From positions 1 through 64,000 of the forward strand of contig SYLX01000070.1 of assembly GCA_005808505.1 (NCBI GenBank): DNA of 64,000 nt. Reading direction: 5' to 3'. This DNA comes from Bdellovibrionales bacterium. GTDB taxonomy: Bacteria; Bdellovibrionota; Bdellovibrionia; Bdellovibrionales; JAMPXM01. Numbering within the stretch: position 1 is the stretch's first letter; the number at the start of each line of letters is the position of its first letter. Both the position numbers and the translations under genes were made by a program. The notes below the pieces were generated by a model that was given only the letters and a program-made list of their open reading frames with translations, was not told where the DNA came from and did no database searches. Of the stretch, positions 11,270 to 50,316 are shown in pieces.

Positions 11270-11848
11270 ATGCCGCACTTACACGCCAGGAAAGGCGTCG
11301 CATCTCAAAATGGATCAGAGGCTGGGTTCTCACTCGTTGAGCTCATGGTCGTCGTTTCGATCATCAGCGTCCTGGGAGTCATCGCGCATCCCAATTACAC
11401 GAAGTTCGCCGATCGCGCGAAAATGAACGCGGCTAAAGCCGTCATGAGCCAAGCGAAAGCCGGCATTCAAGGCTTGCGTGAAATTGACGAACGAAACTTG
11501 ATTGGGATCACCGGTAACGGCTGCACGATGTGCCAGCAAGGCATGCCCTACGGTGGCGATCCGTTGAGTGCAACGAACGTGGCTCTAGGCGATGATTCGT
11601 GGCGCCGGATAGGTTTTGACGGCACACCTCGCGACGGCTGGGGGCGACCGTTCGTTCTCGATGAAAACGAAGAAGAAAGCGGACTCACCGACTGCCGCCA
11701 CGATGCACTCTGGAGCGCGGGCGCTGATCATATTTGGCAAGGACCTGGCGACGGAGATGACGTCTTCGGCGACGACATCATCATCCGTGTTCCTTATTAC
11801 AACAAGCGATCTTGCCCTAACAACATCAACGGGCAGTTCGGCGGCTGA
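11270..11848 (+). CDS. GspG-like pseudopilin, copy 1
   Basis: The 192-residue protein carries a prepilin leader of about 18 residues ending in G, then FSLVELMVVVSIISVLGVIA, the classic N-terminal helix cut and methylated by prepilin peptidase (Glu at mature position 5). The head domain has PRDGWGRPFVLDENE, like the D.WG.P motif of GspG, and GPGDGDDVFGDDIIIRVP, an Asp-rich loop that looks like a calcium site. Cys residues (NGCTMCQQ, DCRH, RSCP) may form disulphides. It closely resembles the product at 18908-19492, 7 kb away. No secretion or pilus assembly genes are nearby. The ribosome site is weak. Confidence 0.85.
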   Translation: MPHLHARKGVASQNGSEAGFSLVELMVVVSIISVLGVIAHPNYTKFADRAKMNAAKAVMSQAKAGIQGLREIDERNLIGITGNGCTMCQQGMPYGGDPLSATNVALGDDSWRRIGFDGTPRDGWGRPFVLDENEEESGLTDCRHDALWSAGADHIWQGPGDGDDVFGDDIIIRVPYYNKRSCPNNINGQFGG

Positions 11849-12714: not shown

Positions 12715-12772
12715 AGGGTCCTTTTTCGCGCTACTCTTAGGTGAAAAGGACCTAAAATGGGTCCCTTTTGGA
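12715..12772. promoter_or_regulatory. Three operator-like GGGTCCTTTT elements between divergent genes
   Basis: AGGGTCCTTTTTC (12715-12727) and GAAAAGGACCT (12743-12753) form an inverted repeat. A third copy, GGGTCCCTTTTGG, follows at 12760-12772 and touches the ribosome site of the HTH gene. The placement is typical of an autoregulated divergent operator; this is inference. Confidence 0.55.
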
Positions 12773-12782
12773 GGATTCCGCC

Positions 12783-13517
12783 ATGAAATCGGACCGAACA
12801 GACTACATGATCGTGATGAGCCACTTAAAAACGGCATTAAAGCGCCAAAAGATGAACTATCGAGATCTCGCAAAGGGGCTGGGGCTCTCTGAGTCGGGAG
12901 TAAAGAAGATCTTCCTCGCACGCGATGGATCTTTTCAGCGAATCAATGAGATCTGCGCCTATCTTGGTCTGACACTTTCGGATGTTTTAAGCGGCACAAC
13001 CGAAACGGTTCGTCCGATCCATTACTCAAATAAACAGCAAACATTTCTACTTGAGACGCCGAAGGCCTTCGCGCTTTATTGGAAATTGGTTTACGAGAGA
13101 GATAGCGTTGAGAAGTCCATCGCCTCTCTTCACCTTTCGGAGAAGTCGGGATTTTCACTTCTCCGGCAACTCGATCAACATCGGTTGATTAAACTTCTTC
13201 CGGGAGGCCGCGTTCAATTGCCACCGATTCAACTCATTCGTTGGGCCGGAACAGGGCCGCTGGTCGAGAAGATCTATCGTGAATGGTCCCAGGAGTTGGT
13301 GCGTACGGTCGCTTCTCCGCAGCCCCCGCCGAATGCCTATTTCCTCATTCGCTATTTCAAGATTAAGCCTAAGACGTATGCTGATTTCTTAGCGGCCCTC
13401 GAGGATCTCGAGCGCGAATTCATTCGCCGTGGAACAAAAGATATGCGATCGGAAGCCGAAGATCTCGTACACTTCCGTTGGCTTACCGCCGTCGACAATC
13501 GAAGCTTTATCAAATGA
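12783..13517 (+). CDS. XRE/Cro-type HTH transcription regulator
   Basis: This 244-residue protein has an N-terminal helix-turn-helix of the Cro/C1 type at about residues 10-65: LKTALKRQKMNYRDLAKGLG, LSESGVKKIF and FQRINEICAYLGLTLSDV. The remaining 180 residues look like a helical, winged-helix-like effector part (FALYWKLVYERDSVEKSI, SGFSLLRQLDQHRLIKLLPGGR) related in style to regulators common in Bdellovibrio-like bacteria. The ATG at 12783 follows GGAGG at eight bases. It is divergent from the desaturase-like gene, and the shared region holds three similar sequence elements, so autoregulation and control of membrane-lipid modification are likely. Confidence 0.8.
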   Translation: MKSDRTDYMIVMSHLKTALKRQKMNYRDLAKGLGLSESGVKKIFLARDGSFQRINEICAYLGLTLSDVLSGTTETVRPIHYSNKQQTFLLETPKAFALYWKLVYERDSVEKSIASLHLSEKSGFSLLRQLDQHRLIKLLPGGRVQLPPIQLIRWAGTGPLVEKIYREWSQELVRTVASPQPPPNAYFLIRYFKIKPKTYADFLAALEDLEREFIRRGTKDMRSEAEDLVHFRWLTAVDNRSFIK

Positions 13518-13611
13518 TGAAAATCAATCGCAGCTCGGACGATGGAAGGTTGGAATTTTCTTTACCAACTCGCACCGGCACCTTCATCGTTGCGCCTAAG
13601 AAACCGAACTC

Positions 13612-13786
13612 ACGCGTCTCAAATCGAGACACGTGATCAACTTCCAGACAAAGCCTATTCGGGTGTCAAACGTTTTGCGTTTCTTCAGGTAGAGACGAGC
13701 GTCAGAACCAAATCTTACGCTCGCGAGCCGGTCATAGGCTTGCAGAACCATCCCATCAAGCACGGAGTGTTTCGTGCGGATGGGAG
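13612..13786 (+). promoter_or_regulatory. Predicted structured leader RNA before the glycine-rich protein gene
   Basis: Four stems can be read by eye. ACG-GTCTC / GAGAC-CGT spans about 13612-13633. AAGCCTAT (13651-13658) pairs with ATAGGCTT (13734-13741) and encloses CGAGCGT (13696-13702) / ACGCTCG (13717-13723). Finally TCCCATC plus GCACG (13751-13764) pairs with CGTGC plus GATGGGA (13773-13785). The last arm contains the GGGAG ribosome site of the gene at 13793. This looks like a cis-acting regulator that can hide the ribosome site. I could not match it to a known riboswitch class. Confidence 0.5.
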
Positions 13787-13792
13787 TTCGCC

Positions 13793-15127
13793 ATGCTCAA
13801 ATTCAGTAAAGTAGTTCCGCAGCTCAGCGCGCTTTTGCTCTTACCGACTTTCGCGCTTGCCAACTCCCCGTATAGTTATCCGCCAATGGATTATCCGCCT
13901 GCTTATGAAGCGACACCGGGACAACCGGGACGCTCCGGTGCTGAAGGTGGAGCCGGCGGTGCCGGTGGACGCGTCAGCTACGAAGATCATCGAAGCTATC
14001 CATATGCTCCATCCAGCTATGCTCCTGGCCAGCCTGGTCAGCCAGGTCGAGGTGGGCAAGGCGGAGCCGGTGGCGCTGGAGGACGTAGCAATGGACCTGC
14101 GAGCTATCCGCCCTCGGCAGAGATGATGAATCAGAACGCCCCGCGAGTTGATGAATTTGATTATCCTCCTGAGCCGCAATCAGGACGGCCCGGCGGACAA
14201 GGGGGCCGTGGCGGAGTCGGAGCTGGTGGAGCCAGCGGTGCTTCGCAAATGAATCGTCCCTACGCAATGCCTGAGGTAGATAAAACATCGGATTCCTATC
14301 GCTCCTACGAGGCTTGGCGCGAGCAAGTGATCCGCGAATCCCAAGGCCGTGTCGTACCTGGTGAAGCGGGTCAACCTGGAGGCGCCGACGGCTCCGGCGG
14401 AGCCGGTGGCAAAGGTGGCGTAAGCACCACGGGACCCGCTGTTCCGAGCACAGGTAAACTGCCCACATCGGTAAATGCATCGAAGCCCGCAACGCAAAAG
14501 AAACCTTCGAACGGGAAGCCCCAATCAGACGATAAAGATTCGGGTGCCCAGGCCCTTAGCTACGCTTGTTCCAACGGCAAAGACTACACTTTGCTTTTGG
14601 ATCCTAAAACAAAACTCAAGTCAGGAAAGAACAACACCGAGCTCCTCTGGGCTGTCGGCTTTTGTCCCCAGAAAGTCGCAAAGCCTGAATCAAAAGTAAC
14701 GAACAAGGATTTCAAAGCATGTCGTTCTTCCGAACGAACGCGCGAGCTCGTCGATTGCTTGGCTGAACTCTACGACAACAACAAGATGAAGCAAGATGAT
14801 CGAAAGCGTCCATACGTCGCAAGCGAGATCAAGCAAGGTCGCGAACCCTTGAGCGCAAAAAATCTCGCATCGCTTGAGAAGAGCTGCAAAGTAGTCTCGG
14901 GTAATGGTGAGGCCTTTAAAAACACCGGTTGCGCTCGTACAGCGAAGATCGGCGGCTCGACAACGGAGAAGGAATTCTCCTGCCTCTTTGCGAAAGTTGA
15001 AGATCAAAAATTTGAGATGTCTCCCCCTTCGCAGCGTACGTGTTACCGTGCGATTGAAAAGCTTCGTGCGACTTTAATTGCGAGTCGCTCAAAGACGAAC
15101 GGTGCTCCAAAGAAGACCGCGAAATAA
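13793..15127 (+). CDS. Secreted glycine-rich, collagen-like protein with Cys-containing C-terminal domain
   Basis: The 444-residue protein has a signal peptide (MLKFSKVVPQLSALLLLP, cleavage ALA-N). Residues of about 20-220 alternate Pro/Tyr-rich spacers (SYPPMDYPP) with four blocks of collagen- or PE_PGRS-like Gly repeats such as PGQPGRSGAEGGAGGAGG. A Lys/Pro-rich linker follows. The last 190 residues form a basic domain with paired Cys (YACSNGKD, VGFCPQK, FKACRSS, LVDCLAEL, EKSCKVVS, NTGCARTA, FSCLFAK, RTCYRA). I infer a surface or matrix protein with a rigid repeat stalk and a disulphide-bonded head. The upstream leader RNA may control translation. A bidirectional terminator follows. Confidence 0.8.
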   Translation: MLKFSKVVPQLSALLLLPTFALANSPYSYPPMDYPPAYEATPGQPGRSGAEGGAGGAGGRVSYEDHRSYPYAPSSYAPGQPGQPGRGGQGGAGGAGGRSNGPASYPPSAEMMNQNAPRVDEFDYPPEPQSGRPGGQGGRGGVGAGGASGASQMNRPYAMPEVDKTSDSYRSYEAWREQVIRESQGRVVPGEAGQPGGADGSGGAGGKGGVSTTGPAVPSTGKLPTSVNASKPATQKKPSNGKPQSDDKDSGAQALSYACSNGKDYTLLLDPKTKLKSGKNNTELLWAVGFCPQKVAKPESKVTNKDFKACRSSERTRELVDCLAELYDNNKMKQDDRKRPYVASEIKQGREPLSAKNLASLEKSCKVVSGNGEAFKNTGCARTAKIGGSTTEKEFSCLFAKVEDQKFEMSPPSQRTCYRAIEKLRATLIASRSKTNGAPKKTAK

Positions 15128-15190
15128 GATAACACGGCTCATGGGGGCACCGATGGAGATTCACGGCAGCTTGTCGAACTCGAAGTGATC

Positions 15191-15226
15191 AAAAAAAAGC
15201 CGCCCCTTTTGGGAGCGGCTTTTTTC
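15191..15226. terminator. Bidirectional intrinsic terminator
   Basis: The stem GCCGC-CC / GG-GCGGC with a TTTT-containing loop is flanked by an A run on the left and a T run on the right, so it serves the convergent genes at 13793-15127 and 15257-15778. Confidence 0.9.
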
Positions 15227-15256
15227 CTTGCAGGATGCAGATCATCAATTCGCTAA

Positions 15257-18907: not shown

Positions 18908-19492
18908 ATGCCGTTGATTTCAATTCGAACCGAGAGAACCCTACCGTCTCAGTCTGGCCCACAAGCCGGCTTCTCCCTCGTGGAGTTGCTGGTGGTCGTC
19001 TCGATCATCAGCATCTTGGGCCTCATCGCTCAACCCAATTACACAAAGTTCGTAGACCGAGCTAAGGTAAACGCCGCCAAGGCTACGTTGAGCCAGGCGA
19101 AAGCCGGAGCCGTTGGTATTCGAGAAATAGATGACGTCACCCTTATCGATCTCACCGGCCAAGTCTGTTCGACTTGTACGATGGGCGCCGCCTTCAACAC
19201 CGATCCGGCCACGTGGGGAAGCATCGCGAATGCAGCTCCTAGCTGGGCTCGAATAGGATTCGACAGCGTACCGCGCGACGCCTGGGGCCGCCCCTTCATG
19301 CTCGAGGAAAACGAGCAAGAGTTCGGGGTCGGCGATTGCAGATACGACGTATTTTATAGCGCAGGTCCCGATCATATTTGGATGGGTTGGGGCGATGGAG
19401 ATGACGTTTTCGGTGATGACGTCATCATCCGTGTTCCGCGGAAAAACGATCGCGCCTGCCCCCATAACCTATGGGGCCAGTTCGGCAGCTAA
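18908..19492 (+). CDS. GspG-like pseudopilin, copy 2
   Basis: The 194-residue product repeats the plan of the protein at 11270-11848: a prepilin leader ending QAG, FSLVELLVVVSIISILGLIA, TKFVDRAKVNAAKATLSQAKAG, PRDAWGRPFMLEENE and GWGDGDDVFGDDVIIRVP, ending in WGQFG. Differences are concentrated in the central loop (TGQVCSTCTMGAAFNTD), suggesting different partners. The Asp-rich loop is probably a calcium site as in major pseudopilins. No pilus or type II secretion machinery is within the window, so the assembly apparatus must be elsewhere. The ribosome site is again weak. Confidence 0.85.
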   Translation: MPLISIRTERTLPSQSGPQAGFSLVELLVVVSIISILGLIAQPNYTKFVDRAKVNAAKATLSQAKAGAVGIREIDDVTLIDLTGQVCSTCTMGAAFNTDPATWGSIANAAPSWARIGFDSVPRDAWGRPFMLEENEQEFGVGDCRYDVFYSAGPDHIWMGWGDGDDVFGDDVIIRVPRKNDRACPHNLWGQFGS

Positions 19493-50205: not shown

Positions 50206-50316
50206 CCTCGCTTAGTGTCTCAATTTGAGACGCTTTCCTCGATGACTTCCGGGCACTCTTGGGCCAAGCCTTTGCTAGATCTAATCGTGAATCCGAGAAC
50301 AGACAGGAGAAAGCCA

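Follow-up and report, generated by a model that had tools for sequence, protein, structure and literature searches.

The glycine-rich protein gene at 13793-15127 of the 64,000-nucleotide stretch of Bdellovibrionales DNA analysed here (henceforth the window) is preceded by a leader that is predicted to sequester the Shine-Dalgarno (SD) sequence in a stable stem immediately 5' of the start codon. On balance, we favor a two-layer control of this gene, in which a putative operator governs transcription and the leader hairpin that buries the SD damps translation. The leader region is bounded upstream by the gene for a 244-residue Cro/C1-type helix-turn-helix (HTH) protein (12783-13517; HTH_26, Pfam PF13443, 30.6 bits over cut-off), and both genes lie on the plus strand. 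The 444-residue product of the downstream open reading frame combines an apparent signal peptide with short collagen-like GXY glycine-rich stretches and a C-terminal part with cysteine. It is an orphan: there is no match in Pfam, NCBIfam or PHROGs and no real homologue in phages, plasmids, viral contigs or GTDB contigs, the best relative being a 29% partial match in a single one of 368 genomes of the phylum. A strong intrinsic terminator (AAAAAAAGCCGCCCC...GGGAGCGGCTTTTTT, 15190-15230) is seen 3' of the gene, suggesting that the glycine-rich transcript ends there. On either side of the region lies one of two paralogous pilin-like genes (11270-11848 and 18908-19492), both bearing a type IV N-terminal methylation motif.

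The SD, GGGAG at 13782-13786, is located six bases 5' of the ATG and is fully paired in the 3' arm of a predicted terminal hairpin on the plus strand (13745-13789, -24.9 kcal/mol), which ends three bases before the start codon and has a z-score of -5.8 computed on 13743-13793. An earlier reading of this DNA, hereafter the original prediction, had described a 12-pair hairpin with GGGAG in its 3' arm; both hairpin and motif are present, but the stem comprises 18 pairs in three blocks (4 + 7 + 7). In the model, the unpaired probability of the SD is at most about 0.1 at each position from 15 to 50 C, whereas blocking the 5' arm of the hairpin frees a part of it. The hairpin is predicted for all 5' ends tried, from 13637 to 13743, and is thus independent of the exact transcription start. 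To obtain a base rate, we folded the 5' regions of 284 genes with a recognisable SD, drawn from 464 kb of this genome (the window and twenty 20-kb pieces). Among these, the glycine-rich gene ranks first for the stability of its 120-nucleotide 5' region and second for that of the last 51 nucleotides. The predicted cost of opening its ribosome site, 20.7 kcal/mol against a median of 9.5, is the fifth highest, and at least one of the four genes above it (3298, minus strand) resembles a terminator overlapping a badly chosen start. Hence, the central proposal that the leader hides the ribosome site of this gene is upheld at the level of predicted structure, and the hairpin is exceptional for its genome.

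Stems of this type are familiar from the structured sxy leader of Haemophilus and the initiation hairpins of phage coat genes. As in those systems, the ribosome site is sequestered by a stable stem directly 5' of the start codon, which should reduce translation; the present case differs in that the gene is an orphan and that both the stem and its effect are predicted. The leader is, accordingly, a fresh example of an already known SD-burying element and ordinary in kind, and it matters mainly as a strong single case, easy to test, from a bacterial order that has received little study. With one leader sequence behind it, the function of the predicted SD hairpin is plausible but unproven. Within the same genome a comM-like gene (L109 minus strand, start 10592) likewise has a long interrupted hairpin directly before its ATG with the SD in the 3' arm, although both its sequence and the gene are unrelated to the glycine-rich leader, and some of its orthologues in the family also show SD hairpins. 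Separately, we noted the hairpin of this Mg-chelatase/competence gene (G000:C224:30592) as having 19 pairs and -29 kcal/mol and as ending at the ATG; several of the orthologues examined (L119, L120, L121) place the ribosome site in a hairpin.

Beyond the terminal hairpin, the entire RNA from 13612 to 13793 is predicted to fold with -70.7 kcal/mol against a mean of -50.1 for dinucleotide shuffles, none of 200 of which was as good (z -5.4), in agreement with the suspicion of a structured leader. The signal stems chiefly from 13696-13793 (z -7.7, dinucleotide shuffles). All the complementary arms named in the original prediction are present, namely AAGCCTAT (13651-13658) with ATAGGCTT (13734-13741) and CGAGCGT (13696-13702) with ACGCTCG (13717-13723), yet the nesting of the latter pair within the former lies outside the favoured fold. 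This fold is instead a row of plus-strand hairpins: a weak one at 13647-13667, one of 6 pairs in the GTTTCTTCAGGTAGAGAC region (13679-13696), one of 9 pairs formed by GAGCGT-CAGA...TCTT-ACGCTC (13697-13722), one of 7 pairs formed by GCGAGCC...GGCTTGC (13723-13743, probability 0.96) and the terminal hairpin. The outer stem AAGCCTAT/ATAGGCTT (13651-13741, plus strand) is a minor alternative with a probability of 0.03, i.e. about 3% of the ensemble, and forcing it costs 2.3 kcal/mol. It is excluded by the hairpin at 13723-13743, while the SD hairpin is not in competition with it. Nor is the density of arms as improbable by chance as had been thought: 3.7% of equal-sized stretches of the window contain as many perfect pairs of at least 7 bases, making the count just mildly unusual. 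Likewise, when the whole window was scanned coarsely (10 shuffles per position), the leader ranked within the top sixteen of 1278 positions and not alone at the top, and about a dozen other stretches, some of them coding, reach z-scores near or beyond -4 (10 shuffles each). The z-score alone, with similar values elsewhere in the window, does not prove function. An intrinsic terminator inside the leader was considered and ruled out, there being no T run on the plus strand.

As modelled, the anatomy of the leader is that of a lock with no switch evident, the predicted fold being static and devoid of a second state. This bears on the suggestion that the leader is an RNA thermometer or a metabolite riboswitch of an undescribed class, a reading that we regard as very improbable. 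Many such elements are multi-hairpin leaders with the SD within the last stem, and in this respect the leader is comparable to thermometers such as ROSE and fourU. However, it has no weak internal stretch at the SD, the hairpin by itself is too stable, and the modelled SD pairing survives unchanged from 15 to 50 C. A riboswitch finds equally little in its favor, as there are no two mutually exclusive folds: the SD hairpin forms in every fold and with every 5' end examined, whichever upstream fold is adopted, and no competing SD-exposing fold is seen. Furthermore, a search of Rfam at gathering and relaxed thresholds recovered no credible match to a described class, the two weak matches being on the minus strand and far below their cut-offs. 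BLAST with the leader found no match in the family genomes, and a single-sequence covariance model run on 13 family genomes retrieved only the leader itself and a chance match at E 0.68; the relatives searched for homologues of the leader and of the protein include none of the same genus. The HTH regulator offered another route to homologous leaders. Its paralogue elsewhere in the genome (G000:C216, 50% identical) has neither a comparable leader nor a glycine-rich neighbour, and the genes neighbouring this paralogue and its relatives differ.

The very stability of the hairpin, which in the model is too great for self-opening, could be taken to favor a conditional leader, with translation switched by a trans-acting factor, CsrA for instance, or by a small RNA acting on the hairpin. 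The genome does encode a csrA gene (90.8 bits), and the leader has an ACGGA at 13762-13766 near the loop, in the apical part of the hairpin, as well as a GGA overlapping the SD. However, GGA motifs are common, just one of these is near a loop and it lies within weak apical pairs rather than in a clean loop, and the candidate site is already closed without any protein, while the sites that CsrA represses are usually accessible ones. Compared with CsrA-regulated leaders (see the review PMC7652899), the resemblance comprises the presence of csrA in the genome and of GGA motifs both at the SD and close to the loop of a hairpin, whereas the SD here needs no protein to be closed and the CsrA site is putative. 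We consider control by such a factor unlikely. Doubtful too is the more ambitious reading, that the leader represents a new class of conditional cis-regulatory RNA, exposing the ribosome site for a secreted, collagen-like product on a protein or small-RNA signal, and works together with an undescribed transcription regulon that extends across the order and has YGTCTCRNNNYGAGACR as its mark.

A different way of opening the hairpin would be translational coupling, whereby ribosomes on an upstream frame would melt it and pass translation on to the ATG at 13793. The obvious candidate is a 90-codon frame with an ATG start (13542-13814, plus strand), which runs without a stop across the entire leader, all hairpins included, and terminates 22 bases into the glycine-rich gene. 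Against this, its codon score of 0.02 is intermediate, with genes scoring 0.087 (sd 0.033) and the off-frame null -0.108 (sd 0.057), a second leader frame scores 0.011 in the same test, and no good ribosome site is apparent by eye at the start of the 90-codon frame. This frame has no support as a real gene, and we view coupling as a doubtful explanation. In the same region there is a putative 40-codon frame (13514-13636), which starts in an ATGATGA overlapping the regulator stop and reads MMKINRSSDDGRLEFSLPTRTGTFIVAPKKPNSRVSNRDT.

The first of the arm pairs in the leader calls for a different interpretation from the rest. It is the near-perfect palindrome TCACGCGTCTCAAATCGAGACACGTGA at 13610-13636, which had been proposed as RNA structure and is better read as the putative operator of an order-wide regulator. 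Its core, CGTCTCAAATCGAGACA at 13615-13631, is an intergenic match to the motif YGTCTCRNNNYGAGACR. The basic pattern GTCTC-N5-GAGAC is present in 37 copies in the genome against 5 for the reversed pattern, and a close form of it is enriched in all 13 family genomes. As the bases flanking the searched core are also conserved, the motif could be refined to the 17-base YGTCTCRNNNYGAGACR. This form has 24 copies in the present genome and 32 in another family member, with 0 for the reversed control in either, and it is present in 55 of the 59 genomes searched. The majority of the sites in the genome itself (27 of 35) fall outside long reading frames. Moreover, the outermost Y and R of the motif are kept, yet do not pair reliably with each other, which points to a conserved DNA sequence rather than an RNA stem. 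A second copy of the palindrome is found in the window at 50216-50232.

One could extend this interpretation to all the arms, regarding them as operators and other dyads at the DNA level and the RNA fold as incidental. This holds for the first pair, and both strands indeed fold well. The other arms, however, have no recurrent match in the genome or the family, and the end of the strongest hairpin falls precisely at the ribosome site, which would be expected of a functional RNA but not of a DNA element. We hence think it quite unlikely that the DNA-level explanation covers the leader as a whole.

Under the two-layer control that we favor, the operator at 13610-13636 would probably set transcription of the orphan gene, and the transcript would begin with several successive hairpins, of which the final one (13745-13789) would bury GGGAG and thereby damp translation initiation. 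The damping might be lifted where the hairpin is held open, be it by ribosomes that bound during transcription or are otherwise present on the RNA, by a trans-acting protein or by a small RNA. The operator motif and the predicted leader structure are both present at this locus and both rare in the genome; from these we infer occupancy of the operator, the place of the transcription start, low translation and any conditionality. The most likely working mode would be a constant brake on a secreted protein, with a regulated switch being less likely.

The palindrome itself may matter more than the leader, as it is enriched in nearly every relative examined, and it merits separate study. YGTCTCRNNNYGAGACR has the look of an operator for a regulator that is shared across the order and undescribed; in the literature searched, for its sequence and in connection with Bdellovibrio, no description of the motif was found. 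No fixed -10 box is visible behind the operator sites, and no promoter consensus was found at the leader. Many of the genes 3' of the operator appear to be secreted, with a crude test of signal-peptide enrichment that is not significant (p 0.18 in this genome, 0.09 in the family). The adjacent HTH protein is probably not the regulator that binds 13610-13636, given that, by eye, its gene and the paralogous one carry other dyads before their own starts. Directly before the HTH gene there is a dyad GGACC-TAAAATG-GGTCC at 12748 (within 12740-12770), and a repeated GGTACC precedes the start of the paralogous regulator (L089, 3820-3880, minus strand); these dyads are possible autoregulatory operators of the two genes.
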